This document shows, in pieces, positions 7,647-20,095 of a stretch of DNA of 64,000 nt. The position numbers and the translations under genes are program-made. The DNA is from Oscillospiraceae bacterium. GTDB taxonomy: Bacteria > Bacillota > Clostridia > Oscillospirales > Acutalibacteraceae. The notes beneath the pieces were generated by a model. The model saw only the letters and a list, made by a program, of their open reading frames with translations, was not told where the DNA came from and did not search any database. Numbering within the stretch: the first letter of the stretch is position 1; every line of letters starts with the position of its first letter. The stretch lies in contig SVOB01000001.1 in NCBI GenBank assembly GCA_015066565.1, positions 496,001 to 560,000 of the forward strand, in the 5' to 3' direction.

Positions 7647-7652
7647 TGAATA

Positions 7653-7684
7653 AACGGCGCACCGTTTGGTGCGCCGTTCTTTTA
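7653..7684. terminator. Strong terminator, identical to that at 19647-19677
   Basis: AACGGCGCACC pairs perfectly with GGTGCGCCGTT around GTTT and is followed by CTTTT. The same hairpin and tail recur letter for letter beside the tRNA-Leu gene at 19.65 kb. Both copies are directly followed by the tRNA 3'-end sequence. It ends the transglutaminase transcript and may also have been the terminator of a minus-strand tRNA. Confidence 0.85.
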
Positions 7685-7685
7685 A

Positions 7686-7704
7686 TGCGAATAACAGGAC
7701 TTGA
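7686..7704 (-). repeat. tRNA-Leu 3'-end fragment, copy 1
   Basis: Nineteen bases, TGCGAATAACAGGACTTGA, match the 3' acceptor and T-arm of the tRNA-Leu at 19680-19763 with one mismatch, directly after the shared terminator hairpin. It is too short to be a tRNA. It is best read as an attachment-site-like scar. Confidence 0.65.
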
Positions 7705-7737
7705 AAAGGCAACTAATTGTATGTTGCTAAATCATAA

Positions 7738-8189: not shown

Positions 8190-8237
8190 GTAACATTTTT
8201 ATAATGTTATAGAACACATAGAAAAGACTATAATGAT

Positions 8238-8271
8238 AAAGACCTGATATCTTTTTGGATATCAGGTCTTT
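8238..8271. terminator. Perfect 14-bp palindrome, probable bidirectional terminator
   Basis: AAAGACCTGATATC pairs without mismatch with GATATCAGGTCTTT around TTTTTG. The outer A/T pairs supply a short U tract on either strand. It ends the orphan gene at 8189 and, like the other two hairpins of this kind, is immediately followed by a tRNA-Leu 3'-end fragment. Confidence 0.65.
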
Positions 8272-8275
8272 GTTA

Positions 8276-8294
8276 TGCGGATAACAGGACTTGA
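8276..8294 (-). repeat. tRNA-Leu 3'-end fragment, copy 2
   Basis: TGCGGATAACAGGACTTGA is a perfect 19-base match to the 3' end of the tRNA-Leu at 19680-19763, in the same orientation. It follows a terminator hairpin, as copies 1 and 3 do. Confidence 0.7.
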
Positions 8295-8454
8295 CAAAGA
8301 ATTGCTTGAACAATTCTTTGGGTGTTCGGCGACCGAAATCCTTACGGATTTCAGTACCCGCCTTGCACATTCTCGCTAAAAACAATTCACTGAATTGTTT
8401 TCTTAACGCTCGAATTCTTCGGTTCAAGTCCTGAATTATAACTTGGTTAAAAGA
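8295..8454. repeat. Hairpin-rich intergenic element without a gene
   Basis: No plausible gene is seen here. At least three short stem-loops occur in a row: AAAGAATTG with CAATTCTTT, GAAATCC with GGATTTC, and AAACAATTC with GAATTGTTT. Near 8420 the plus strand reads GGTTCAAGTCCTG, the inverted complement of the tRNA T-arm sequence that starts at 8496. That makes an inverted repeat around the hairpin at 8455. The density of stems suggests a mobile palindromic element or a decayed structured RNA. Confidence 0.5.
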
Positions 8455-8485
8455 AAAGGCACACCGTCTGGTATGCCGTTCTTTT
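8455..8485. terminator. Decayed copy of the tRNA-linked terminator
   Basis: AAAGGCACACCGTCTGGTATGCCGTT is recognisably the 7653/19647 hairpin with several substitutions, one of which breaks a stem pair, and keeps the CTTTT tail. It lies directly before the tRNA-Leu fragment at 8488. Confidence 0.55.
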
Positions 8486-8487
8486 AA

Positions 8488-8553
8488 TGCGGATAACAGG
8501 ACTTGAACCTGCACGATATTGCTACCACTAGAACCTGATGGTAACGCAACCTC
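8488..8553 (-). pseudogene. Truncated, decayed tRNA-Leu (3' portion)
   Basis: The first 29 bases (8488-8516) are identical to the 3' end of the tRNA-Leu at 19680-19763. Similarity continues without gaps through the variable arm and the CAG anticodon loop to about 8553, with scattered changes. The anticodon stem has lost pairs, and the D-arm and 5' acceptor strand are replaced by unrelated sequence, so it cannot fold as a tRNA. It marks the left border of the tungsten gene island; the intact tRNA marks the right border. Confidence 0.65.
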
Positions 8554-8581
8554 GGTGAAAGCTTACATATCGGTTATCAAC

Positions 8582-8962
8582 TTATTCATACTCAACTTCA
8601 ATTGCGTCGAACTTGCATTTTGATGCGCAGAGTCCGCATTTGAAGCATTTGCTCTGGTCGATTTCAAAGGGCTCCTTGATTACGCCGTGTGAGGCGGATG
8701 CCTTGCAGACTCTTGAACAGAGCGAACAGCCCTTGCACTTTTCGGGAATAATCGTAACTTTTTTAATCTTACGATAACCGTTAGGTGTAATTATTGCGTC
8801 ATTCGGGCAAACGTGCGAGCACTGTGAACATTCAACACATTTTGTTTCGTCAACGGTGTAAAGAGATGCATCGCTGTTTGCCGCGCTTATAGCGTCAAAA
8901 AGGCAGGTGAAAGCGCATCCGCCGCAGCCGACGCATTTGTTTTCGTCAATTCTGAAAGCCAT
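8582..8962 (-). CDS. Polyferredoxin with four 4Fe-4S motifs
   Basis: This 126-residue protein is almost entirely Fe-S binding. The cluster motifs are CVGCGGCAFTC, CVECSQCSHVCP, CKGCSLCSRVCK and CFKCGLCASKC, each with the CxxCxxC spacing and further cysteines that cross-ligate. Four 4Fe-4S clusters can be expected, more than a simple two-cluster ferredoxin holds. It is the last gene of the minus-strand aldehyde oxidoreductase operon, three bases after the MoaD-like gene. It is probably the electron-transfer subunit taking electrons from the tungsten enzyme. Whether it is free or tightly bound is inference. Confidence 0.9.
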   Translation of the reverse strand: MAFRIDENKCVGCGGCAFTCLFDAISAANSDASLYTVDETKCVECSQCSHVCPNDAIITPNGYRKIKKVTIIPEKCKGCSLCSRVCKASASHGVIKEPFEIDQSKCFKCGLCASKCKFDAIEVEYE

Positions 8963-8965
8963 ATC

Positions 8966-9217
8966 TTAACCTCCCGATGCGGGTGAAAGAAGCCATATCT
9001 CATCACCGTCATTAAGCTTTTGCTTTTTCTTTTTGCAGTGCTCGCCGTTAATAAACACGGTTGCATCTGCAAAAGCAATACTGCTCTTGTTTTCACCGAC
9101 AGCCATTTTATTAAGCTCGTCAAGCACGTCGGAGAGCTTTTCGGCTTCAATTTCGGTATGGGCGATATGAGTATCAATTCTGTAAACGCCGAAGAGCTTA
9201 ACACTAACCTTTGCCAT
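8966..9217 (-). CDS. MoaD/ThiS-like sulfur-carrier protein
   Basis: This 83-residue protein has the ubiquitin-like fold of MoaD and ThiS. It starts AKVSVKLFG, ends LNDGDEIWLLSPASGG and carries the C-terminal Gly-Gly that is adenylated and thiocarboxylated. The ATG at 9217 is chosen over an in-frame TTG two codons upstream because a GAGGAGG site lies seven bases before it. It sits between the oxidoreductase and the polyferredoxin, and a matching ThiF-like E1 is encoded in the same operon. It may serve as MoaD for molybdopterin synthase, although no MoaE is found in the window. It could instead be a dedicated carrier for the tungsten enzyme. Confidence 0.85.
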   Translation of the reverse strand: MAKVSVKLFGVYRIDTHIAHTEIEAEKLSDVLDELNKMAVGENKSSIAFADATVFINGEHCKKKKQKLNDGDEIWLLSPASGG

Positions 9218-9219
9218 AT

Positions 9220-11166
9220 TCAAGCCTCCTCTTTATTCTCAAAAGCCTTTGCAACAGCCTTGTCATATACGGATTTATCTATCTTAATGCCGAGCGTTTT
9301 AAGCCTGTGCCACGTCGGAACACCGTCTTTCCATCCGCGCGCTCTGTAAAAGACCTTCTTCATTTTTTCAAGCGGAACCTTGGTTTTGGGATTGTTCGGA
9401 TCCTGAAGCTCGTCTGTAAGGCGTTTCGGGAGTTTATCTGCCCCTGCCTTCTGACCGAGAATTACGTTTGACATTCTTTCCGCATTCCAGCCGTATGCAC
9501 CCCACGTGAGAAATTTCGCCATGTTCGATTTCATACCGGTTGCGAGTTTAACTGCAATTGCGTGAGGCAAAAGCGGAATATTAATCTGCGGAACCTTTGT
9601 GAAGTGGCTCAGAAGATTAACAACAGGGCCGACATACGGGAAGCAGGCAAGGATTATCTTTGTCAGAAGCATATTAGGTTTTGCAATAAGAAAACCGGGA
9701 AGAACAGCGTAGCTTGTGAACATACAGCTGCCCGCAGCAGAAATGGATTCCATAAGATTCTGGAACATAATGCCTATTGCCGCCTTGCCGTGAGGCGTGA
9801 GAGAATTGACATCAAGTCCGAGCCCCTCAACAACGACCATATAACCTGCGTTGAGGTGACAACCGCCGCGGTTTGCAGTGGCGTAACCGAGTCCCTGACC
9901 GACTGCGTGGCGCGGTTCGTATGCCGCAAGCTCCATGCCCTTGGCATTGATGGCGTATTCCTTGCCACCGAAAATGTCGCTCATACGCTTTGAGCCGTCG
10001 GCGATATAATTACCCTCGCCTCTGCGATAGGCGATGTCCTCAAACATCTGTGAAATATTATCCGTTTCGCCGAAATGAACACCGAAATCGTGAACTCCCC
10101 TTTCGGCAAGTTCCATAGCGAATGCTATCGAGCCCGCACAGGAAATCGCATCCATGCCGAGTTCGTCAAGCTCATAATTCCATTTGAGGATTTTTTCAAT
10201 GTCATCGTTTAAAATATTTGGTCCGAACAGACCGAGAGTTTCAAGCTCGGGCCCTTTTACTACCTTATCATTAACCATAACACGCCTTGCGCAACGGATT
10301 ACACAGCCCGTGCATGCACCGTTTGAAACGAGGTGGTTTTCCGCAAGTTCCTCACCCGATACCTTTTCAAAGCCGTCAAATCTACCTGCCGAGAAATTCT
10401 TTGTAGCAAGAATTGAATGCGCTTGCATGGGAGCGATAAGTCCTGCGCTGCCGAGCTTGGGAAGCTGTCTGCCCGTCAGAGGATGTGTTTTTAATAGCTT
10501 TGTCCATTTGACATTGAATTCCTTGAGCTTTTCTTCTTTAGCAATTTCCGGTAACTTTGTTCCCTCGGCTGTAACTGCTTTAAGCTTTTTATCACCGAAA
10601 ACTGCTCCGACTCCGCCCCTTCCTGCAGTTCTTTCATTACTGAAAACGCAGGCATAAAGAACTTTATTCTCGCCGGCAGGGCCGATAACAAGACGTCCCT
10701 TGTAATTGCTGAGCTTTTCCTGCGCTTCGCCCGTGGTAAGTCCCCAGAGCTCTTCTGCGCTTTCAAATGTTACTCCGTCGCATGTAATATGAGCCGTTAC
10801 GGGTTCTTCACTTCTTCCGCTGAAAATAACCGCATCAAAGCCCGCTCTTTTAAGTGACAAACCAAAATCACCGCCACAGTTTGAGGAGGTTACGATATTC
10901 GTCAGCGGTGAAATTGTTGAAATATTGAAACGCGATGTGTTAGGGCAGCCGCAACCCGTCAGCGGGCCCGTTGTAACAACAAGCCAGTTGTCCTCATCAA
11001 ACGCCTTCATACCCGGCTTTATGTGATGAAGAAGAATGTCGGCGGCCATAACCTTACCGCCCAGTGTTCTCTGTCTGTCCTCATCTGTCCAGGGAAAATC
11101 GCTGAAGGTCTTTTCGGTAAGGTCAACAAAGAGTACCCTGCCCATATAACCTTTGAAATCGGTCAA
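9220..11166 (-). CDS. Aldehyde:ferredoxin oxidoreductase, tungsten-bispterin family
   Basis: This 648-residue enzyme should oxidise aldehydes to acids in the cytosol, passing electrons to ferredoxin. The AOR fold is recognised from GRVLFVDLTEKTF at the N terminus, the 4Fe-4S ligands CTGCVIRC near residue 285, the fourth ligand in GSCMFTSY near 480 and the pterin-contacting ANRGGCHLNAGYM. The start is a TTG at 11166, chosen because AAAGGAG lies eight bases upstream; the longer reading overlaps the ThiF-like gene with no ribosome binding site. It is about 40 residues longer than the classic archaeal AOR, mostly at the C terminus. Neighbouring TupABC and the cofactor genes argue for tungsten rather than molybdenum. 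The aldehyde substrate cannot be told. Confidence 0.92.
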   Translation of the reverse strand: MTDFKGYMGRVLFVDLTEKTFSDFPWTDEDRQRTLGGKVMAADILLHHIKPGMKAFDEDNWLVVTTGPLTGCGCPNTSRFNISTISPLTNIVTSSNCGGDFGLSLKRAGFDAVIFSGRSEEPVTAHITCDGVTFESAEELWGLTTGEAQEKLSNYKGRLVIGPAGENKVLYACVFSNERTAGRGGVGAVFGDKKLKAVTAEGTKLPEIAKEEKLKEFNVKWTKLLKTHPLTGRQLPKLGSAGLIAPMQAHSILATKNFSAGRFDGFEKVSGEELAENHLVSNGACTGCVIRCARRVMVNDKVVKGPELETLGLFGPNILNDDIEKILKWNYELDELGMDAISCAGSIAFAMELAERGVHDFGVHFGETDNISQMFEDIAYRRGEGNYIADGSKRMSDIFGGKEYAINAKGMELAAYEPRHAVGQGLGYATANRGGCHLNAGYMVVVEGLGLDVNSLTPHGKAAIGIMFQNLMESISAAGSCMFTSYAVLPGFLIAKPNMLLTKIILACFPYVGPVVNLLSHFTKVPQINIPLLPHAIAVKLATGMKSNMAKFLTWGAYGWNAERMSNVILGQKAGADKLPKRLTDELQDPNNPKTKVPLEKMKKVFYRARGWKDGVPTWHRLKTLGIKIDKSVYDKAVAKAFENKEEA

Positions 11167-11171
11167 GTGAA

Positions 11172-11810
11172 TCACTCCTTTACACAAAGTGAATGAATTT
11201 CGTTATTGTCGAATATATAGAGCTTGCCTGCACTGTCGGTGTTACCCAAAAAGTAATCTATGGCAAGCTTTGCTTCAAACGTGCCGATAAGTCCTGCCGT
11301 AACGCTCGGGGACTGATTCTTCACATCCGTTTCATTAAGACAGCCCGCCTTTTCAAGGTTAGCCGTCTTTTCGGGAATGAAAAGATAGGCAAACCCTAAA
11401 AAGCCGTTGATACTTCCGTTAATGCACGGCTTTTTATTCTTTACGCACCAGTCATTAACATTTTTTCTCGTATCGATATTGTCAACTGCAATGATTATTA
11501 TATCGTAGTTATCTGCAAATGAAAACTCGTTAACCTTTTTGTTAAGCCATTCGATTTCACAGTCGGGAGCATACGAAGAAAGTCGGATTTTGAGTAACTC
11601 GCATTTCGCTTTGCCGATGTCTTCGGGAGTGTAGAAATACTGACGGTTGAGATTTCTTTCTTCAACCGTATCAAAATCGACAAGCAGAAGTTTGCCGATT
11701 CCCGCACCTGCAAGGTGAACGGCAACATTCGTGCCAAGCCCTCCGCAACCGATAACGACTGCGCTGTTTTTTGAAATATCAAAGCCCTGAACTTCGGATT
11801 TAATACTCAT
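11172..11810 (-). CDS. ThiF/MoeB/HesA-family E1-like adenylyltransferase
   Basis: This 212-residue protein has the ATP-binding loop VVIGCGGLGTNVAVHLAG, the LVDFDTVEERNLNRQ motif with the conserved arginine, GKAKCELLKIRL and IAVDNIDTRKNVND. It should adenylate the C-terminal glycine of the MoaD/ThiS-like protein encoded two genes downstream. It is shorter than typical MoeB (about 250 residues), and I see no pair of CxxC zinc motifs. Its start overlaps the end of the mogA-type gene by four bases and its stop is five bases before the oxidoreductase start. It is probably dedicated to this cluster. Confidence 0.85.
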   Translation of the reverse strand: MSIKSEVQGFDISKNSAVVIGCGGLGTNVAVHLAGAGIGKLLLVDFDTVEERNLNRQYFYTPEDIGKAKCELLKIRLSSYAPDCEIEWLNKKVNEFSFADNYDIIIIAVDNIDTRKNVNDWCVKNKKPCINGSINGFLGFAYLFIPEKTANLEKAGCLNETDVKNQSPSVTAGLIGTFEAKLAIDYFLGNTDSAGKLYIFDNNEIHSLCVKE

Positions 11811-12301
11811 TTTCCGTAATTTCCTCCGCAGTTTTGTGTGTTCCCCGATAAGGTTTCAACGGCATGTTCAAGTACGGGAAGAACAACCTCAATGCTCTCC
11901 CTGACGGCTTTCGGACTACCGGGGAGATTGATAATCAAGGTCTTTCCTCTTATACCGCTGACGGCGCGTGAAAGCATAGCACGGGAAGTGATTTCAAGTG
12001 ATTTTGCCCTGATGGCTTCGCTGATACCCGGAACTTCTTTTTCAATAACGGACTTCGTCGCTTCGGGAGTGATATCCCTCGGCGCAAATCCCGTACCGCC
12101 CGTTGTGAAAACAACGTCCGCACCAAATGTGTCGCAAAGCTCCATAATGGCGTTTGAAATCATATCCTTTTCGTCGGGAACAAGGCGGTATTCGTTTCCG
12201 GTTGAAAGCTCTTTTACGCATTCGGCAATTGCCTTACCGCTTTGGTCCTCGCACTCGCCTTTATAACACCTGTCGCTTACGCAGATTATTCCAAATCTCA
12301 T
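11807..12301 (-). CDS. MogA/MoaB-type molybdopterin adenylyltransferase
   Basis: This 164-residue protein starts MRFGIICVSDRCYKGE and shows the MoCF_biosynth signature VVFTTGGTGFAPRDITPEA and LINLPGSPKAVRESI. Enzymes of this family activate molybdopterin by adenylation before MoeA inserts the metal. In tungsten users the MoaB/Mog protein does the same for tungstate. The ATG at 12301 has an AGGTGA site; an in-frame GTG three codons upstream does not. It is the first gene of the minus-strand arm and diverges from tupA. Confidence 0.88.
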   Translation of the reverse strand: MRFGIICVSDRCYKGECEDQSGKAIAECVKELSTGNEYRLVPDEKDMISNAIMELCDTFGADVVFTTGGTGFAPRDITPEATKSVIEKEVPGISEAIRAKSLEITSRAMLSRAVSGIRGKTLIINLPGSPKAVRESIEVVLPVLEHAVETLSGNTQNCGGNYGK

Positions 12302-12318
12302 AATAATCACCTAAGATA

Positions 12319-12347
12319 ATATTACCACAGCGCACGGGACTTTTCAA
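12319..12347 (-). promoter_or_regulatory. Candidate promoter of the oxidoreductase operon
   Basis: On the minus strand TTGAAA (12347-12342) and TAATAT (12324-12319) are 17 bases apart. Transcription would start near 12312, leaving a leader of only about ten bases before the ATG at 12301. No riboswitch could fit on this side. Confidence 0.4.
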
Positions 12348-12394
12348 CAAATAAAAAAGTTCTTTATTTATTGCACCTTATATGATAATATAAA

Positions 12395-12525
12395 GATGTG
12401 ATATTGCCCGACCTTTCGTTGCTAAGTACCTTGTATATGCAACCTGAGGCGAAGTCGAAATTTTCTTCACATCGGCTTAAGGGTATTGCGGGAAACGGCA
12501 ATGCCTTCCGTGTTTGAAAAGGAGC
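12395..12525 (+). promoter_or_regulatory. Moco/Tuco-type riboswitch leader of tupA
   Basis: The leader shows ordered pairing and motifs that resemble the moaA molybdenum-cofactor RNA as I remember it. GGTATTGC (12482-12489) pairs with GCAATGCC (12498-12505) around a GGGAAACG loop, followed by GCCTTCCGTGTTTGAAAAGG in place of the E. coli GCCTCCCGTATCTGGAAAGG. CAACCTGA near 12441 matches the conserved CAACTGA. ACCTT (12428-12432) can pair with AAGG (12519-12522), which overlaps the tupA Shine-Dalgarno GGAG, so translational control is likely. GATGTGA (12395) with TCACATC (12467) is a possible alternative stem. Its place ahead of a tungstate transporter favours a tungsten-cofactor-sensing variant; class and ligand remain inference. 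Confidence 0.7.
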
Positions 12526-12532
12526 AGCTATC

Positions 12533-13399
12533 ATGAAAAAAGTATTAGCAATTCTACTTGCAGTTGTATTCGTACTGTCGCTTGCGGCTTGCGGTGCAAA
12601 GACAGAGAATCCGACAACAACCGAAGCTCCCTCAACGGTCCCCACACCGGAGAATCCGACAATCCGTCTTTCGACCACAACATCGGTCAATGACTCGGGA
12701 CTTCTTCCCTACCTTCTTCCGACATTTGAAGCTGAAACGGGCTACAAGGTTGAAGTTCAGTCGGCAGGTACGGGCGCAGCCATTCAGAAGGCAATCGACG
12801 GTAACGCAGACGTAATTCTTGTTCATGCCAAGGCATCGGAGGAAGAATTTATCGAAGGCGGTTACGGCGTTGAACGGCTTCCCTTTATGTACAATTATTT
12901 CGTAATTGTCGGCCCGAAGGATGACCCCGCAAAAGTTAACGGCAGTGCAGATGCAAAAGAAGCATTTGGCAAGATCAGAGACGCCAAAGCTAAGTTCGTT
13001 TCCCGCGGTGACGAAAGCGGCACTCACAAGGCAGAGCTTAAAATCTGGGGCGACGACGCTCCCGACGCTCAAAAGGATTCCTGGTACATCAGCGCAGGTC
13101 AGGGCATGGGTGCATGTCTTACAATGGCAAGCGAGCAGCAGGCATACTGCCTGACAGACAAGGCAACCTTCCTTTCAATGAAGGACGAACTTAATCTTGA
13201 TATCGTTCTCGCAGAAGGCGACGATATGAAGAACACCTATTCTCTTATCGCAGTTAACCCCGACAAGATTGATGGGCTTAATACAGAAGGTGCTCAGGCA
13301 TTCATCGATTGGATGCTTTCCGATGAGGCAAGCGCACTTATCGCTAAATACGGCGAAAAAGAATACGGCGTTGCGCTTTTCACACTTATTGAAAAATAA
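12533..13399 (+). CDS. tupA: Tungstate ABC transporter, substrate-binding lipoprotein TupA
   Basis: This 288-residue lipoprotein carries the signal MKKVLAILLAVVFVLSLAAC and a Thr/Pro-rich linker. The binding domain starts with IRLSTTTSVNDSGLL, the TupA signature whose Thr/Ser residues bind the tungstate oxyanion. Further blocks are DVILVHAKASEEEFI and FVSRGDESGTHKAE, both conserved in TupA/PstS-like proteins. It should capture tungstate outside the membrane with very high affinity and hand it to TupB. The GGAG site lies within the riboswitch-like leader. The stop overlaps the tupB start by one base (TAATG). Confidence 0.93.
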   Translation: MKKVLAILLAVVFVLSLAACGAKTENPTTTEAPSTVPTPENPTIRLSTTTSVNDSGLLPYLLPTFEAETGYKVEVQSAGTGAAIQKAIDGNADVILVHAKASEEEFIEGGYGVERLPFMYNYFVIVGPKDDPAKVNGSADAKEAFGKIRDAKAKFVSRGDESGTHKAELKIWGDDAPDAQKDSWYISAGQGMGACLTMASEQQAYCLTDKATFLSMKDELNLDIVLAEGDDMKNTYSLIAVNPDKIDGLNTEGAQAFIDWMLSDEASALIAKYGEKEYGVALFTLIEK

Positions 13400-14085
13400 T
13401 GGACAGTTTCCGACAGGCATTTGAGCTTTTGTTTTCACTTGACAAGGAGCTAATGCAAATAATCGGCGTTACCTTACGGATGTCTTTTTTCAGCACAACA
13501 ATTTCGTGTATTTTAGGACTTCCCATCGGTGCGCTTATCGGAACAAAAAGCTTTAAGGGGAAATCGTTTCTCAAAAAGCTTATACACACACTTATGGGCT
13601 TGCCGCCGGTGGTGGCAGGTCTGTTCGTGTATATGCTGTTCACACACTACGGACCTTTCGGTTCTTTAAACCTGCTTTTCACCGTTAAGGTTATGGTAAT
13701 TGCTCAGGTTATTTTAATTACGCCTATTGTCATAGGTCTTTCGTCCTCATTTATCGAAAGCACATCAAAGCCGATAATTGAAACTGCGAGGGGCATTGGT
13801 CTTAAAAACGGAAAAATCGTAAAGCTTTGTCTGTCCGAAGGACGCACTTCGCTTGTTTCGATAGTTTTAAGCGCATTCGGCCGTTCAATTGCGGAGGTCG
13901 GTGCGGTAAGCATTGTAGGCGGTAATATTCAGTGGAAAACCCGTGTTATGACAACCGCCATTATGCTTGAAACAAACAAGGGTAAATTCTCGTTTGCGTT
14001 AGCACTCGGAATTATTCTTCTGATAATTGCATTTATCGTAAATGCAGTTGCCTCGTTCATAGTAAAGGAGGCAAAAGATGATTAA
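13399..14085 (+). CDS. tupB: Tungstate ABC transporter, permease TupB
   Basis: This 228-residue membrane protein has five to six hydrophobic helices and the EAA loop of binding-protein-dependent permeases, seen as ETARGIGLKNGKIVKLCL and followed by SAFGRSIAEVGAVSIVGG. LMGLPPVVAGLFVYMLF is characteristic of TupB/ModB-like permeases. It forms the channel between TupA and TupC. The start is coupled to the tupA stop and its end overlaps tupC by eight bases. Confidence 0.92.
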   Translation: MDSFRQAFELLFSLDKELMQIIGVTLRMSFFSTTISCILGLPIGALIGTKSFKGKSFLKKLIHTLMGLPPVVAGLFVYMLFTHYGPFGSLNLLFTVKVMVIAQVILITPIVIGLSSSFIESTSKPIIETARGIGLKNGKIVKLCLSEGRTSLVSIVLSAFGRSIAEVGAVSIVGGNIQWKTRVMTTAIMLETNKGKFSFALALGIILLIIAFIVNAVASFIVKEAKDD

Positions 14086-14731
14086 CATAACAAAACTTAA
14101 AAAAGAATACAGGGAACGAACTGTTCTTGACATAGATAAGCTCGAAATAAAAGACGGTGAAATGCTTGCCGTCGCAGGCGCAAACGGAAGCGGAAAAACA
14201 ACGCTTCTGAAGATTCTTGCAGGTCAGCTGAAAAAAACCGACGGTGAACTGTCCCTGCCCGAAAATGTATTGTATATGCCTCAGCAGTCTTACGCTTTCA
14301 GGGGCAATCTTCTTGAAAACATCACACTCGGAAAGGCAGATAAGGAAAAGGGAGAAAAACTGCTTGAAAAGCTTGAACTTTCTCATTTAAAAGATAAAAA
14401 GGCGGTTTCTCTTTCAGGCGGTGAACTGCAACGTCTTTCGCTTTGCAGAATACTTGTAAGAAAAGCAGAGCTTTTGCTTCTTGACGAGCCGACAAGCGCA
14501 TGCGATGCAAAGGGTGCAGAGCTTGTTGTTGAGGCAATAAAGGAATACCGAAAAGAAACGGGCTGTACGGTGATAATGACAACGCACTCGCCGGCGTTAG
14601 CCATCAATGCCGCCGACAGACTGATTATTCTAAATAACGGAAAAATCGAGGCGGACGGTGAGCCGCTTAAAATACTTAACGAGCCCAAAACCGACTGGGC
14701 AAAAAGCTTTATTGCAGGGTGGAAAATCTAA
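14078..14731 (+). CDS. tupC: Tungstate ABC transporter, ATPase TupC
   Basis: This 217-residue ABC ATPase has Walker A VAGANGSGKTT, the Q-loop in LYMPQQSYAFRG, the signature LSGGELQR, Walker B LLLLDEPTSA and the switch histidine in TTHSP. It powers uptake through TupB. It lacks the C-terminal TOBE/Mop domain of ModC, consistent with a TupC-type half protein. The gene overlaps tupB and its stop overlaps the next start (TAATG), so the transporter is translated as a unit with moeA. Confidence 0.92.
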   Translation: MINITKLKKEYRERTVLDIDKLEIKDGEMLAVAGANGSGKTTLLKILAGQLKKTDGELSLPENVLYMPQQSYAFRGNLLENITLGKADKEKGEKLLEKLELSHLKDKKAVSLSGGELQRLSLCRILVRKAELLLLDEPTSACDAKGAELVVEAIKEYRKETGCTVIMTTHSPALAINAADRLIILNNGKIEADGEPLKILNEPKTDWAKSFIAGWKI

Positions 14732-15924
14732 TGCTCAACGTCGTAACAAAGGATGAAGCGGTTGAGATTGTAAAAAGCAATTCTCTTACTGATTTGAAAA
14801 CCGAAAAAGTGAATATTGACAATGCGCTTTTCCGCATTCTTGCAGAAGACATTGTGTCGGTGGAAGACATTCCGTCCTTCGACAGAAGCACAGTTGACGG
14901 CTTTGCGGTAAAGGCGGCGGATACCTTCGGTGCGGGAAATGCAATTCCCGCACAGCTCGAGATTGTCGGCGAAATACTTATGGGCGAAAAGGCAGGTTTT
15001 ACTCTTGAAAACGGTCAGTGCGCAAAGATTTCAACCGGAGGCATGCTCCCGAAAGGCGCGGATGCGGCGGTAATGGTTGAGCACACCGACTGTGATAATT
15101 CGCTCTGCCTTGTGTATAAGGCCGTGTCGCCCAATGAAAACGTTACAAAAAAGGGCGACGATATTTCGGTCGGCGAAACCGCACTGAAAAAAGGAACGAA
15201 AATAACCTCAGCCGAGATCGGAGTTCTTTCGGCTCTGGGCATTTATGAAGTCCCTGTTTTTAAAAAGCCCGTTATTGCTGTCATTTCAACGGGTGACGAA
15301 ATTACAGACGGTACGCCTGAGGACGGTCAGATAAGAGATGTTAATACAAATCTGCTCTCGTCCGCAATAACAGAATACGGCTGCGAGGTTTATAAATACG
15401 GTGCAGTCAGGGACAACAAAGATGAAATAAAAAATGCCCTTGTTACCTGCCTTGAAAAGGCGGATGCCGTTATTGTTTCGGGCGGCTCGTCTGCGGGTGC
15501 AAGAGATATGACGGTCGATATAATTGACGAACTCGGCACGGCATACTTTCACGGAATCGCAATGAAACCCGGTAAGCCGACTATCTTCGGTACAGTTTTA
15601 AACAAACCCGTTTTCGGTTTGCCCGGCCATCCGTTGGCGGCATATTTCGTTTTCCGACTTGTTGTGGCGGAGTATATAAGAAAAATGCTCAGTCTGCCCG
15701 CCGATAAACCGATAAGTCATGGCGTGCTTAAAGAGAATATCCCCTCAAATCACGGCAGAGAGGAATATATATGCATAAAGCAAACCGATAACGGAGAAAC
15801 CGTACCCGTACACACAAAGTCGGGAATAATATCCGTTCTCGGCGAGGCAGACGGCTTTATAAAAATCACCAGAAACACAGAGGGACTGCCGAAGGGTACA
15901 ACCGTGGAGATATTTGAACTATGA
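14731..15924 (+). CDS. moeA: MoeA-type molybdopterin molybdenum/tungsten transferase
   Basis: This 397-residue protein has the four-domain MoeA layout. The N-terminal SVEDIPSFDRSTVDGFAVKA block comes first, then GCAKISTGGMLPKGADAAVMVEH-like residues (about 90-115). The MoCF_biosynth domain has VISTGDEITDG and VSGGSSAGARDMT, and the chain ends with KPGKPTIFG and VFGLPGHPLAAYFVF. It should insert the oxyanion into adenylated molybdopterin. The ATG overlapping the tupC stop is preferred to an upstream GTG. It lies directly after the tungstate transporter and directly before a second, fused MoeA, so the two may differ in metal or in the cofactor step served. Confidence 0.92.
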   Translation: MLNVVTKDEAVEIVKSNSLTDLKTEKVNIDNALFRILAEDIVSVEDIPSFDRSTVDGFAVKAADTFGAGNAIPAQLEIVGEILMGEKAGFTLENGQCAKISTGGMLPKGADAAVMVEHTDCDNSLCLVYKAVSPNENVTKKGDDISVGETALKKGTKITSAEIGVLSALGIYEVPVFKKPVIAVISTGDEITDGTPEDGQIRDVNTNLLSSAITEYGCEVYKYGAVRDNKDEIKNALVTCLEKADAVIVSGGSSAGARDMTVDIIDELGTAYFHGIAMKPGKPTIFGTVLNKPVFGLPGHPLAAYFVFRLVVAEYIRKMLSLPADKPISHGVLKENIPSNHGREEYICIKQTDNGETVPVHTKSGIISVLGEADGFIKITRNTEGLPKGTTVEIFEL

Positions 15925-17795
15925 AACACAATTATCTGAATAATCTTCCTCTTGACGAGGCAAAAAGAATATATAAAGAGCATCTTTCGTCTGTCGGTTT
16001 TGAGGGCGAAACAGAAACAGTTAGGGTAACGGACGCCTGCGGAAGAGTTATTAAAAATGCCGCTTATGCAGTTATCTGCTCACCGCACTATAACGCGAGT
16101 GCGATGGACGGCATTGCGGTTAATTCCGAAATTACCTATTCTGCAAGTGAAAGGACGCCCGTCACGCTTACACCCGATAAATATGTTGTTGTTGATACAG
16201 GCGACCCGATTCCGGAAAACTGCGATGCGGTCATTATGGTTGAGGATTTAATCGACCGTGAGAACGGGAATTACGATATTATCACTGCTCACCACCCGTG
16301 GCAGAATGTCCGTCAGGTCGGAGAGGATATATGCATGGGTGATATGATTGCGCCGTCGGGAACAACTCTCACCCCGTCGCTGTGCGGTGCGCTTCTTGCA
16401 GGCGGAATTACCGAAATTGAGGTTTATAAGAAACCTCTTGTCGGCATTATTCCGACGGGCGACGAAATAGTTGAGCCGACCTCGAATCCCGAAAAGGGCC
16501 ATATAATTGAATTCAACTCAACCGTTTTCAAGGGTATGCTCGATGATTTTTCGGCAGAATCAAAAGTCTATCCCATAACTCCCGATAAAAAAGATTTGAT
16601 TAAACAAGCAGTTGAAAGGGCGCTCGAAGAATGCGATATTGTCCTCGTTTCCGCCGGCTCATCCGCAGGTAGGGATGACTACACAAGTGAGATTATTTCT
16701 TCGCTTGGCACAGTACTCGTTCACGGTATTGCAATAAAGCCCGGCAAGCCCGCCGTTATCGGCGAAGCTAAAGGCAAACCCGTCATAGGGCTTCCCGGAT
16801 ATCCCGTTTCGGCTATAGTAATTATGGACGAAATTGTCAGCGAAGTCTGTTCTGTGTACTATTCAAAATCCGAACCTAAAAGAGAAACGGTTAAGGCGGT
16901 TCTTTCAAAGAAAATCGTGTCCTCGCTTAAATACAGCGAATATGTGCGTGTTTCACTCGGCAGAATAAACGGCACGCTTATCGCTTCTCCTTTAGCTCGC
17001 GGTGCGGGCGTAATCACAAGCTTTACGAAGTCCGACGGCGTTCTCGTTGTTCCGCAGAACTGTGAGGGAATTGAGTCGGGTGAAGAGGTTGAAATCCGCC
17101 TTCACAAATCGCTTTGTGAGATTGAAAACACACTCATTATCACGGGCAGTCACGATCCGCTTATCGACGAGGTTTCGGATTTTCTTGCAAAAAGCGGTGC
17201 GCCTTTCAGAGTCTGTTCCACTCATGTCGGCAGTATGGGTGCGATATATGCAGTAAGAGACGGACTTGCTCACATGGGCGGAATTCACCTGCTTGACACC
17301 GAAAGCGGAGAATACAACAAAAGCTATGTTGAAAAATATCTGCCCGACGGCAAAGGTGTAACAGTAAAGGGTGTAGGACGTGTTCAGGGGCTTATGGTAA
17401 AAAAGGGAAATCCGCTCGGAATAAAGGAGTTCATGGATACTCAGTCCGTCCGTTATGTTAACCGTCAACGGGGCGCAGGTACTCGGATTCTATGCGACTA
17501 CCTTATTGACAAATACGGACTTGATAAAGATAGAATCAACGGCTATACAAACGAGGAATTTACGCATACCGCCGTTGCGGCTCTCATAGCGGCAGGCAAT
17601 GCGGACGCAGGGCTCGGCATCTATTCGGCAGCGAAAATGTATGACCTCGATTTTATCCCGATTTGTAACGAAACCTACGAGTTTCTTGTTGCGAAGGACG
17701 AGCTTGAAAACCCGATGGTAAAGGCATTCCTTGATGTTCTCTATTCGGAAGAATTCAAAAACCGCCTTAAAAAAATGGGCGGATATACGGAGTGA
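15921..17795 (+). CDS. MoeA fused to a periplasmic-binding-like domain
   Basis: This 624-residue protein is a two-part fusion. Residues about 1-395 form a complete MoeA with SPHYNASAMDGIAV, VIMVEDLI, IIPTGDEIV, VSAGSSAGRDDYT and VIGLPGYPVSAIV. Residues about 400-624 form a PBP-like (COG1910) domain with LIITGSHDPLIDEVSDFL, RGAGTRILCDYLIDKYG and a C-terminal helix pair. No signal peptide or helix-turn-helix is seen, so the second domain probably binds molybdate, tungstate or cofactor in the cytosol. Such MoeA-PBP fusions are known in Clostridia and archaea. The start overlaps the moeA stop by four bases. Confidence 0.9.
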   Translation: MKHNYLNNLPLDEAKRIYKEHLSSVGFEGETETVRVTDACGRVIKNAAYAVICSPHYNASAMDGIAVNSEITYSASERTPVTLTPDKYVVVDTGDPIPENCDAVIMVEDLIDRENGNYDIITAHHPWQNVRQVGEDICMGDMIAPSGTTLTPSLCGALLAGGITEIEVYKKPLVGIIPTGDEIVEPTSNPEKGHIIEFNSTVFKGMLDDFSAESKVYPITPDKKDLIKQAVERALEECDIVLVSAGSSAGRDDYTSEIISSLGTVLVHGIAIKPGKPAVIGEAKGKPVIGLPGYPVSAIVIMDEIVSEVCSVYYSKSEPKRETVKAVLSKKIVSSLKYSEYVRVSLGRINGTLIASPLARGAGVITSFTKSDGVLVVPQNCEGIESGEEVEIRLHKSLCEIENTLIITGSHDPLIDEVSDFLAKSGAPFRVCSTHVGSMGAIYAVRDGLAHMGGIHLLDTESGEYNKSYVEKYLPDGKGVTVKGVGRVQGLMVKKGNPLGIKEFMDTQSVRYVNRQRGAGTRILCDYLIDKYGLDKDRINGYTNEEFTHTAVAALIAAGNADAGLGIYSAAKMYDLDFIPICNETYEFLVAKDELENPMVKAFLDVLYSEEFKNRLKKMGGYTE

Positions 17796-17799
17796 TAAT

Positions 17800-18267
17800 A
17801 TGCTTACTCATCTCAATAAAGACGGCGAAGCGGTAATGGTTGACGTTGGCGAAAAGAATGTTACAACCCGTACCGCCAGAGCGTATGCAAGAATAAAAAT
17901 GAAAAAAGAAACGCTCGAAATGCTTCTGTCCGCTGACCTTAAAAAGGGCGACGGGCTCGGCACAGCTCGTGTTGCGGGTATTATGGGCGGAAAAAAGACA
18001 AGTGAGCTTATTCCTCTGTGCCATAACATCCCGATTGACAAAATTGCAGTTGATTTTGAAAAGGAAGACGACGCACATCTCGCTGTTTATTCGTTTACAA
18101 AATGCACCTATAAAACGGGCATCGAAATGGAAGCACTCACTGCCGTTTCGGTTGCAGCGCTGACAATTTACGATATGTGCAAGGCCGTTGACAGAGGTAT
18201 GGTTATCGAGGAAATCAAACTGCTCGAAAAAACGGGCGGAAAGAGTGATTACAAGAATGAAGGATAA
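17800..18267 (+). CDS. moaC: Cyclic pyranopterin monophosphate synthase MoaC
   Basis: This 155-residue protein catalyses the second half of step 1 of molybdopterin synthesis, making cPMP after MoaA. MVDVGEKNVTTRTARA, ARVAGIMGGKKTSELIPLCH and TGIEMEALTAVSVAALTIYD are the family signatures; the catalytic Lys lies in KAVDRGMVIEEIKLL. The ATG at 17800 follows the previous stop by four bases with GGAGTGATA before it; the upstream in-frame reading is a shadow of the preceding gene. It ends within the moaA start region. Confidence 0.95.
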   Translation: MLTHLNKDGEAVMVDVGEKNVTTRTARAYARIKMKKETLEMLLSADLKKGDGLGTARVAGIMGGKKTSELIPLCHNIPIDKIAVDFEKEDDAHLAVYSFTKCTYKTGIEMEALTAVSVAALTIYDMCKAVDRGMVIEEIKLLEKTGGKSDYKNEG

Positions 18268-19192
18268 TTTCGGCCGTGAAATAGAATATCTTCGAGTTTC
18301 CGTGACACAGCGCTGTAACCTTAACTGCGTTTATTGCGGAAAAACCGACTGCGCCAAAAAGGAAACCGAGCTGTCCCCCGAAATTATTGAAAAATTAGTC
18401 AGGGCGTTTGTGAAATGCGGTATTACCAAAGTCCGTGTCACGGGCGGTGAGCCGCTTGTGAGAAACGATATCTGCGAAACCGTTAAAAGAATCCGCGGTA
18501 TTGACGGCGTTAAAACCGTTGCGCTCACAACAAACGGAGTTTACCTCAAACAGTATGCGAAAGAACTTAAAAAAGCAGGTCTTGATTCTGTCAATATTTC
18601 ACTCGACAGCACCGACGGCAGCACCTACCGTCACCTGACAGGCGCAGACGTGCTTGAAAAGGTAATGGAAGGTATTGACGAAGCCGAAAATGTCGGGTTA
18701 AGTCCCGTGAAGGTCAACGCCGTACTAATGAAAGGCGTCAACTCAGACGGTGCACAGGAGCTTGTCAATCTTGCAAAGGAAAAGGAAATCGACGTCCGCT
18801 TTATTGAGCTTATGCCGTTTTCCGAAAGCGGAATTGACAAACGGCTTATTGTCACGGGCGGCGATATTCTCAGGCAGTTTCCCTTCTTAAAGCCGATGAA
18901 TTACTTTGAAGGCACCGCCGAATACTACACCGCAGACGGATTCAATGGCAAGGTAGGGCTGATTAATCCGATTACCAAAAAATTCTGCTCGACGTGTAAC
19001 AGAATCCGTCTTTTGTCAGACGGCAAGGTCAAGCCGTGCCTGGGCTATGACGAAACCTATGACCTGATACCGTATATAAATGACGAAAATGAACTCGAAA
19101 ATGAGGTAAAAAATATAATCCTTAAAAAGCCCGCAGGACACAGCTTTGAAAGCGAAATGCCGTCCAAGGGACTCAACAGAACGGGAGGTTAA
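18257..19192 (+). CDS. moaA: GTP 3',8-cyclase MoaA (radical SAM)
   Basis: This 311-residue radical SAM enzyme opens molybdopterin synthesis from GTP. The SAM-binding cluster motif is CNLNCVYC (residues about 19-26). VRVTGGEPLVRNDI and LTTNGVYL follow, and the second 4Fe-4S site is CSTCNRIRLLSDGKVKPCL near residues 244-262. The C terminus ends in Gly-Gly, which is required in MoaA for activating the radical chemistry. The ATG at 18257 overlaps moaC by 11 bases; the upstream reading is a moaC shadow. Confidence 0.95.
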   Translation: MKDNFGREIEYLRVSVTQRCNLNCVYCGKTDCAKKETELSPEIIEKLVRAFVKCGITKVRVTGGEPLVRNDICETVKRIRGIDGVKTVALTTNGVYLKQYAKELKKAGLDSVNISLDSTDGSTYRHLTGADVLEKVMEGIDEAENVGLSPVKVNAVLMKGVNSDGAQELVNLAKEKEIDVRFIELMPFSESGIDKRLIVTGGDILRQFPFLKPMNYFEGTAEYYTADGFNGKVGLINPITKKFCSTCNRIRLLSDGKVKPCLGYDETYDLIPYINDENELENEVKNIILKKPAGHSFESEMPSKGLNRTGG

Positions 19193-19193
19193 T

Positions 19194-19637
19194 ATGGCAA
19201 AGGTAGTTGCAATTAATATAAGCGAAAAAAAGAAAACCCCGAAGAAATCAATCCCCGAGGGAAAACTGATTGAAAACTTCGGTTTTGAGGGTGATGCGCA
19301 CGCAGGCAACTGGCACAGGCAGGTCAGTCTTCTCGCAAAAGAAAGCATTGAAAGAGCCCAAGGTATGCGCACTGACGGACTTTGCCACGGTATGTTTGCC
19401 GAGAATATCACAACCGAGGGAATCGTTCTTCACACTCTGCCCGTAGGCACAAAGCTTAAAATCGGCGACACGGCGGTCATCGAGATTACGCAAATCGGCA
19501 AAGAATGCCACGACGGCTGCGCAATAAGAGAACTCGTCGGCCAGTGCATAATGCCCAAAGAAGGGATTTTCGGCAAGGTGCTCATCGGCGGCATGGTTAA
19601 AGCAAACGACGAAATAAAGATTATAAAAGAGGATTAA
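19194..19637 (+). CDS. MOSC-domain protein
   Basis: This 147-residue protein is a stand-alone MOSC domain. It shows GFEGDAHAGNWHRQVSLL, GMFAENITTEG, LPVGTKLKIGDTAVIEITQIG and the C-terminal block GKECHDGCAIRELVGQC. The conserved cysteine in this block is thought to carry sulfur in MOSC proteins. In cofactor clusters of this type such proteins are considered sulfur- or cofactor-transfer factors. The ATG lies one base after the moaA stop, with GGGAGG upstream. It is the last gene of the plus-strand arm before the terminator. Confidence 0.9.
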   Translation: MAKVVAINISEKKKTPKKSIPEGKLIENFGFEGDAHAGNWHRQVSLLAKESIERAQGMRTDGLCHGMFAENITTEGIVLHTLPVGTKLKIGDTAVIEITQIGKECHDGCAIRELVGQCIMPKEGIFGKVLIGGMVKANDEIKIIKED

Positions 19638-19646
19638 TCAAAAGAA

Positions 19647-19677
19647 AACGGCGCACCGTTTGGTGCGCCGTTCTTTT
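19647..19677. terminator. Bidirectional terminator between the island and tRNA-Leu
   Basis: AACGGCGCACC and GGTGCGCCGTT form an 11-bp GC-rich stem around GTTT, followed by CTTTT. On the minus strand it is the terminator of the tRNA-Leu. It is identical to the hairpin at 7653-7684. Confidence 0.88.
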
Positions 19678-19679
19678 GG

Positions 19680-19763
19680 TGCGGATAACAGGACTTGAAC
19701 CTGCACGAACTTGCATTCATTAGAACCTGAATCTAACGCGTCTGCCAATTCCGCCATATCCGC
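19680..19763 (-). tRNA. tRNA-Leu (anticodon CAG)
   Basis: Read on the minus strand, the 84-base gene has the acceptor stem GCGGATA/TATCCGC and a D-arm with GGCGGAATTGGCAGACGC. The anticodon stem TTAGA/TCTAA carries the loop TTCAGGT (anticodon CAG), a class II variable arm follows, and the T-arm is GCAGG-TTCAAGT-CCTGT. The long variable arm fits leucine. CCA is not encoded. Its 3' end is repeated in part at 7686, 8276 and 8488, and its first 15 bases recur at 20081. Confidence 0.93.
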
Positions 19764-19864: not shown

Positions 19865-20020
19865 CTATTTCTTCTTTTTTTCGGCTTCCTTGCGTAATGT
19901 TTTTAATAGTTTATCACTTCTTGTATCTCGACCATTTGAATTACGAAAGGTTCCAGGAGAAACACCTAATTTTTTCTCTAGGTTGCCTACTTTTATATCT
20001 CCTCGTACTTTTCTTGCCAT
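19865..20020 (-). CDS. Small basic protein of unknown function (51 residues)
   Basis: A 51-codon frame starts MARKVRGDIKVG and contains LEKKLGVSPGTF and NGRDTRSDKLLKTL before a lysine-rich tail. A very good AAGGGAGA site lies eight bases before the ATG, so translation is likely. The codon use is AT-rich, unlike the neighbours. I do not recognise a domain with certainty. The sequence is reminiscent of very small proteins carried by phages and conjugative elements, and the high charge would suit a nucleic-acid or partner-binding role. It lies between the tRNA-Leu and a repeat of that tRNA's 5' end, suggesting an inserted fragment. The 100 bases between it and the tRNA hold no gene. Confidence 0.6.
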   Translation of the reverse strand: MARKVRGDIKVGNLEKKLGVSPGTFRNSNGRDTRSDKLLKTLRKEAEKKKK

Positions 20021-20080: not shown

Positions 20081-20095
20081 TTCCGCCATATCCGC
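20081..20095 (-). repeat. Repeat of the tRNA-Leu 5' end
   Basis: TTCCGCCATATCCGC is identical to 19749-19763, the first 15 bases of the tRNA-Leu read on the minus strand. The two copies bracket about 330 bases that contain the 51-residue gene. The stretch from here to 20255 otherwise holds only short inverted repeats and the next promoter. Confidence 0.6.

Follow-up and report, generated by a model that had tools for sequence, protein, structure and literature searches.

A tungsten gene cassette between an intact tRNA-Leu(CAG) and a displaced tRNA-Leu 3' half in an Oscillospiraceae genome: a probable insertion at the anticodon loop

The stretch analysed here (the window) comprises 64,000 nt of the 1.96 Mb genome of an Oscillospiraceae bacterium (G000; coordinates are window positions) and carries a cassette of 13 tungsten genes (8582-19637), arranged as two divergent operons, between an intact tRNA-Leu(CAG) gene and a displaced 3' half of a tRNA-Leu gene. 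The cassette has probably entered tRNA-Leu(CAG) through an integrase-type recombination event in its anticodon loop, leaving the 3' half as a scar, and the comparison with related loci supports its horizontal mobility between distantly related gut Clostridia. The boundaries and the terminator-like hairpins associated with them are the following:

7653-7705, no strand assigned: terminator-like hairpin T_a with a 20-nt tRNA-Leu 3' piece (1 mismatch), directly after a transglutaminase-like gene (DNA search)
8449-8485, no strand assigned: related terminator-like hairpin T_b, beside the displaced tRNA half (sequence comparison)
8488-8538, minus strand: displaced tRNA-Leu 3' half, nt 34-84, left island boundary (BLAST)
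19641-19676, no strand assigned: terminator-like hairpin T_c, between the MOSC stop and tRNA-Leu (sequence comparison)
19677-19763, minus strand: intact tRNA-Leu(CAG), right island boundary (ARAGORN; RF00005)

The intact gene, whose CCA is encoded, is the only tRNA of the window according to ARAGORN, and no second copy of tRNA-Leu(CAG) was found in the genome by a DNA search with the tRNA and its terminator, at the sensitivity of that search. The four matches that the search gave over the whole 1.96 Mb are the query itself, 8449-8547, 7652-7705 and tRNA-Leu(TAG) at C2:109985, while the 20-mer of the tRNA 3' end (up to 3 mismatches) has four copies in the genome, all at this locus and one of them at 8276-8295 (reversed-pattern control: 0 in G000, 1 in G029). 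A previous reading of the same DNA, made from the sequence only, had described the tungsten genes as bracketed by the intact tRNA and a 3' piece in the same orientation, with 29 identical bases and a related terminator beside each copy, and all of this holds: 8582-19637 lies between the two boundaries, 8488-8516 is identical to the tRNA-Leu 3' end over 29 nt, and 8449-8547 and 19641-19739 are 82% identical. The piece is in fact longer, 51 nt, and corresponds to nt 34-84 of a G010-type tRNA-Leu with 96% identity (BLAST with 53 collected tRNAs); it starts in the anticodon loop (nt 34) and is oriented like the intact gene. By a like-for-like measure against the intact gene it spans 51 nt, 45/51 matching, whereas nine other displaced 3' pieces span only 15-26 nt by the same measure.

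The displaced piece is closer to the tRNA-Leu of genomes G010, G023, G024 and G034 (48/50) than to its intact neighbour (44/50), and the 3' half of the intact gene reaches at most 45/50 to every other genome compared. These differing halves are the expected remnant of an insertion in which the 3' half was replaced. The type common to the four genomes may be the older one, because G010 and G023 belong to different rpoB clades. The 5' half of the intact gene matches every type at 30-34/34 and so fits equally the arrival of a whole tRNA and that of a 3' half only. Another possible origin of the two copies is a local duplication of tRNA-Leu with its terminator, decay of one copy and later entry of the cassette between them by homologous or illegitimate recombination, without an integrase. 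This is unlikely, even though T_a, T_b and T_c resemble each other and cargo-free repeated units of terminator and tRNA 3' end occur at tRNA-Leu of G025 and tRNA-Arg of G000: in the supposed decayed copy, homology beyond the anticodon on the 5' side is not significant (700/2000 shuffles score as well), and this copy is nearer to the G010/G023/G024/G034 type than to its presumed duplicate.

The arrangement resembles that of the tRNA islands collected in Islander, for which the source (PMC4383910) gives a tRNA gene, a fragment of its end in the same orientation, the 3' fragment lying downstream, and cargo between the two, with size limits of 2-200 kb into which the cassette falls. The window fragment begins at a crossover subsite (nt 34 to nt 84, anticodon loop), an anticodon-centred crossover being one of the two Islander subsite groups and a main integration subsite of tRNA islands (PMC4383910, PMC8371274). 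The integration geometry proposed by the sequence-only reading thus stands in that the fragment starts at a classic crossover point, but the crossover lies at the anticodon loop and not at the tRNA 3' end. Unlike Islander islands, the cassette has no integrase that was found, its composition is host-like, and it is overlaid on a series of mini-element scars; for want of an integrase it is not filed as an Islander-type island, and the locus looks like a fossil of one. Integrative and conjugative elements and prophages share the choice of a tRNA site, but no integrase, conjugation, phage or virion gene is among the cassette proteins. A search of 50,697 phage records with the enzyme of the cassette, which belongs to the aldehyde:ferredoxin oxidoreductase (AOR) family, gave no match at E 1e-20, and none was confirmed in viral contigs; its matches in 83 plasmid records are all below 60% identity.

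A larger scar of this kind is seen in full in G027, the sister species of G000 (rpoB 97%, closest of 30 rpoB rows), where a block occupies tRNA-Arg(ACG) (G027:C16 68668-77905, loci L057/L058). Its 3' piece, from nt 33, is 43/43 identical to the native tRNA-Arg of G000, its far end holds the native 5' half with promoter, the two halves overlap by 7 nt (CTACGAA) in the anticodon loop, and between them lies a complete tRNA-Arg of different sequence; G000, in which the gene is uninterrupted, provides the empty site. The four larger genes of the block encode two TetR regulators, an MCRA-family protein and an ABC-2/DUF3533 membrane protein, with no integrase among them (smaller ORFs were not scanned). 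As this block matches the pattern of the window, blocks with an anticodon-loop scar and without a detected integrase have been found twice in this species pair. GTGGTCA-type direct repeats were also noticed by eye beside the G027 tRNA-Arg 3' piece.

The mobility of the cassette is indicated by its distribution, its tree and its flanks. The minus-strand operon encodes a ferredoxin-like protein, a MoaD/ThiS-like protein, the AOR-family enzyme, MoeB/ThiF and MogA, and the plus-strand operon TupA, TupB, an ABC ATPase, MoeA1, MoeA2, MoaC, MoaA and a MOSC protein. AOR was found in 5/36 genomes of the genus and in 0/23 other genomes of the order. The complete set of 13 genes, in unchanged order, occurs in G023, G024 and G027, and 12 of them in G004, which gave no match to the ferredoxin-like gene (loci L189, L201 and L204 were taken as those of G027, G024 and G004). 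A genome scan for related loci, of which the best 80 of 156 were kept, includes 47 loci extending to both MoaD and MOSC; 44 of these keep the gene order of the window (26 complete, 9 lacking a ferredoxin match and 9 lacking TupABC), the order differing in L166, L172 and L176, and more distant AORs sit in rearranged neighbourhoods. Goat, sheep, water buffalo, roe deer or horse gut is named in 33 of the 80 record titles. Where a flank has enough DNA to be judged, its genes are diverse, with 43 families for 56 left flanks and 36 for 41 right flanks.

For the tree, cassettes with all eight chosen proteins present at >60% of their length were concatenated, which kept 49/82 (the 80 loci, the window and G023). 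The window groups with L133 and then with G023/G024 (support 1.0), and its sister G027 with L144, L147 and L152 (support 0.96). The window cassette is 82.9% identical to that of G023 and 82.3% to that of G027, against 83% and 97% for rpoB, and its AOR is 92% identical to G023 and 91% to G024. Since tree and identities disagree with rpoB, simple descent is argued against, and the transferred island of the sequence-only reading withstands the gene-tree comparison. The 78% DNA identity of the G000 and G027 cassettes, against 92% beside purF, was dropped as proof that the two were acquired independently, given that long blocks elsewhere in these genomes range from 69 to 92%; it is because of this range that the tree is used as the argument. 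A whole operon pair for tungsten uptake, cofactor and enzyme thus spreads among deep lineages of gut Clostridia with its gene order largely kept, and G000 is one genome in which the docking scar may still be readable.

Taken together with the tRNA scar, these comparisons suggest the following course. The cassette would be a portable block of two divergent operons, mobile between gut Clostridia, which in an ancestor of G000 came to lie inside tRNA-Leu(CAG) through an integrase-type exchange in the anticodon loop. This would have displaced the resident 3' half (8488-8538) to the far end, the tRNA being restored by a 3' half, or by a complete tRNA, from the incoming DNA. We infer that the integrase acted in trans, having never been on board or having since been lost, and that scar and cassette date from a single event.

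Several observations weigh against an insertion of this kind. No integrase was found when the 13 cassette proteins, together with the 51-aa ORF upstream of tRNA-Leu, were scanned (small overlapping ORFs were not included), as the sequence-only reading had stated; a regular expression for tyrosine recombinases also found none in the cassette flanks and, having had no positive control, is not counted. No empty site of the window cassette was found: the comparison with G027 recovered neither tRNA-Leu(CAG) nor the transglutaminase (TGase) and S1 genes, and over the right flank, as far as ~36.5 kb, it gave short matches only. The former host tRNA gene cannot be seen, so that the foreign identity of the restored half is an assumption of the insertion reading, and the likeness of T_a, T_b and T_c is not required by a simple integrase event.

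Composition, which the sequence-only reading had proposed as a check, likewise gives no signal of transfer. The mean GC content at third codon positions (GC3) of the cassette is 0.472 against 0.479 +- 0.037, the mean codon score lies within one standard deviation, and TupB alone is ~2.4 standard deviations off in codon use; a compositional proof of transfer was accordingly rejected. Because the composition is host-like, the arrival of the cassette is not recent. Vertical inheritance of an ancestral operon in a few species, with loss elsewhere, would fit this composition, as well as the finding that cassette GC tracks flank GC across loci (cassettes of 36 to 64% GC). It is nonetheless very improbable, given a tree that splits the sisters G000 and G027, an AOR 91-92% identical to G023/G024 where rpoB is 83% identical to G023, and flanks that differ.

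The ends of other cassettes give a mixed picture. Within 600 bp of 124 cassette ends from the 80 loci, the window being left out, 5 tRNA clusters were observed against 0.46 expected from the density further out, which is based on 3 clusters (binomial P 0.0017, or 0.0079 with the sister loci L150/L157 counted once); the enrichment is suggestive only, because the 600-bp limit was set after viewing the data. The tRNA 3' end faces the cassette in 4/5 of these loci, the exception being L179. Matches resembling tRNA occur in 7/107 end regions (2 of the window, 5 intact tRNAs) against 3/141 control regions, and a displaced tRNA fragment was found in 0/105 other cassette-end regions of 600 bp, the 5 matches there being the intact tRNAs.

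In addition, displaced end pieces are common near tRNAs in general. They were found near 20/70 distinct tRNA contexts, a set biased to tRNA-Leu that includes sister genomes, with a 3' piece downstream in 8 and a 5' piece upstream in 13 (the window counts in both groups, and one of the 13 is the G027 tRNA-Arg), and nearly all of these contexts are without a cassette; the tRNA-site geometry alone is therefore weak. As the contexts mostly reach ~1.5 kb each way, distant long scars elsewhere would be missed. The cassette may have come to a variable region by another route, for instance homologous recombination following natural transformation, and the tRNA pieces may be mini-element debris that happens to lie beside it. 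The cassette of G023 would suit such a chance neighbourhood, having no tRNA within the 60 kb examined round it and no empty site that was found, its ~60 kb of surroundings differing from G030, G001 and G002. This explanation is rather improbable in view of the length of the window piece, 51 nt from the anticodon loop against 15-26 nt in the nine others, and of the tRNAs enriched at cassette ends, with the post hoc limit given above. The G023 block itself (G023:C40 168-227 kb; L059-L061, L294) carries, besides the cassette, genes that by eye resemble those of restriction-modification systems and, close to its end, a tRNA-Leu(GAG). The equivalent position of G030, G001 and G002 gave no long match, and the region appears as a large variable block and not as a clean island.

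The present site of the G027 cassette offers a hint that it was once at a site similar to that of the window. Half of T_c also occurs 3' of MOSC in G027 (L189), in 1/48 MOSC loci examined (0/47 others), and the right flank of the G027 cassette (L057 4793-4865) is 97% identical over 73 bp to window 8202-8274. That match concerns a hairpin region standing in different contexts in the two genomes, whose longer shared blocks are 69-92% identical. The G027 cassette now adjoins purF, where G000 has an ORF tail of 65 residues (L260 8064-8258; G000:C2:676064-676258). The only PHROG matches of this tail are two integrase families, both weak (E 0.0076 and 0.016), and Pfam gives only an unrelated weak match.

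Further short features surround the two tRNA copies:

8202-8275, no strand assigned: terminator-like hairpin H, 97% over 73 bp to the stretch in the G027 right cassette flank
8276-8448, no strand assigned: gene-less palindromic mini-element with a 19-nt tRNA-Leu 3' piece at its end (8276-8294), a layout also present in cassette-free G035
19868-20020, minus strand: 51-aa ORF upstream of tRNA-Leu, without a match in Pfam or PHROG
20081-20095, minus strand: exact 15-nt piece of the tRNA-Leu 5' end, with a promoter-like TTGACA/TATTAT sequence above it (0/~2000 random window pieces score as well)

Given the 20/70 contexts with such pieces, those at 7.7, 8.3 and 20.1 kb look like background. The first two were rejected as further island borders, the same kind being present in cassette-free G035 and G025, and the 5' piece at 20081-20095, 332 bp upstream of the intact tRNA-Leu, was rejected as proof of a clean whole-gene split, since it belongs to the class found upstream in 13 contexts, the G027 tRNA-Arg included. 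The 51-aa ORF, lysine-rich and lying between the 5' piece and the intact tRNA-Leu, has no copy in the other loci compared. An inverted T-arm piece was noticed by eye near 8420-8432, and the tRNA-Leu of G035 shows, in order, tRNA, terminator, inverted T-arm, hairpins, a 19-nt 3' piece and a terminator; at the G025 tRNA-Leu two nearly identical units of ~215 bp stand in tandem.

Gene-less palindromic mini-elements of ~170-250 bp, composed of a terminator, an inverted tRNA piece, hairpins and a 3' piece of 15-26 nt, are indeed found at tRNA 3' ends in several loci (L095 1588-2016, L072 1588-1799, L082 1220-1451, L264 6156-6339, L064 9309-9560 and window 8276-8448). A second gene-less type, its members alike by eye, occurs at tRNA-Leu 5' ends, with ~130-175 bp after a 5' piece of 22-23 nt (L263 9817-9976, L079 1349-1501, L074 1305-1501). 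An RNA-family search of four mini-element loci gave only tRNAs above the gathering score, and a thin literature check, by title or abstract start, gave no description of mini-elements overlaid on both ends of a tRNA. What inserts gene-less mini-elements into tRNA genes is a question raised by these observations. It is a tentative idea that in this lineage tRNA genes are docking sites at which an integrase acting in trans moves units that are interchangeable and carry a tRNA piece at their end; that these units would extend from gene-less mini-elements (~140-215 bp) through small gene units to whole operons, such as the tungsten cassette and the MCRA oleate-hydratase-like block of G027, is put forward with the same reserve. 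Were it true, large units would supply a working tRNA, and the only detected tRNA-Leu(CAG) of G000 would be island-borne, tying the island to its host.

The genes of the cassette and their supporting matches are listed below; their names are family names only, because the NCBIfam equivalog models for AOR, TupA and TupB match below their cut-offs.

8582-8962, minus strand: WorS-like small subunit with four 4Fe-4S motifs (PF00037, 4 stretches)
8966-9223, minus strand: MoaD/ThiS-like protein (WorX-like) with C-terminal GG (PF02597 over cut-off)
9220-11187, minus strand: aldehyde:ferredoxin oxidoreductase family large subunit, WorL-like (NF007354 E 7.6e-50, below cut-off)
11172-11810, minus strand: MoeB/ThiF-like E1 enzyme (PF00899 over cut-off)
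11807-12310, minus strand: MogA/MoaB-type molybdopterin adenylyltransferase (TIGR00177 over cut-off; NF006932 just below)
12395-12541, plus strand: Moco/Tuco riboswitch aptamer RF01055 upstream of tupA (E 4.6e-16)
12533-14731, plus strand: TupA- and TupB-like proteins and ABC ATPase (TupC by position), tungstate uptake (NF041772 and NF041773 below cut-offs; NF038017 over)
14719-17795, plus strand: MoeA1 and MoeA2, of which MoeA2 has an additional C-terminal part (NF011068: 728 bits for the second, 430 for the first, cut-off 534)
17731-19192, plus strand: MoaC and MoaA (TIGR00581 and TIGR02666 over cut-off)
19146-19637, plus strand: MOSC-domain protein (PF03473 over cut-off)

An AOR-family WorL stands next to a WorS with four 4Fe-4S clusters, and the enzyme, judged from its genes, fits the Class II tungsten oxidoreductases (WOR), with which the window shares, according to the source (PMC13328260), the large subunit, the four-4Fe-4S small subunit, the ThiS-like WorX and a Tup transporter. 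No WorN or WorABC genes (classes III-V) are among the cassette proteins. The large subunit is 31-33% identical to annotated plasmid AORs over 94-97%, and oxidation of an aldehyde with ferredoxin as carrier would be its likeliest role, by family only.

The sequence-only reading had supposed that the island could bring a complete metabolic ability in one transfer, which is doubtful. MoaE is the large subunit of molybdopterin synthase, and next to the MoaD-like protein of the cassette it is the subunit that was not found: a profile search with PF02391 gave MoaE in 0/10 genomes (G000, G004, G021, G023, G024, G027, G029, G030, G034 and G059; a control search gave a signal in 11/14), all five cassette carriers included. 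The window genome weighs most in this negative result, because the carriers are 99 (window), 95, 90, 88 and 75% complete. Five of the genomes in which MoaE was not found carry a tungsten cassette with MoaD, MoaA and MoaC; either a homologue has been overlooked or another protein performs the step. This raises the question of how the cofactor pathway operates in these carriers, on which no paper was found by title in the literature search.

Iyer et al. (2006, PMC1779556) raised the possibility that the gene neighbourhood of AOR, MoaD and MoeB is mobile as a cluster. The likeness to the window consists in an AOR beside MoaD, a MoeB nearby and a patchy distribution; the 13-gene block of the window adds TupABC, two MoeA, MoaA, MoaC, MogA, MOSC and the riboswitch, and differs in that MoaE was not found in the five carrier genomes searched here.

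RF01055 scores above its gathering score in 6/7 cassette loci searched and was not found in L145, which is without TupABC. The alignment of the window riboswitch (12395-12541) shows a hairpin that we take to be P3. The riboswitch form bearing P3 has been linked to the molybdenum cofactor (Moco) rather than to the tungsten cofactor (Tuco) in a 2008 study (PMC2408646). The Moco-family riboswitch of the cassette, apparently with P3, precedes a tungstate-type transporter operon, contrary to the molybdenum link given for that form in the same study (PMC2408646).

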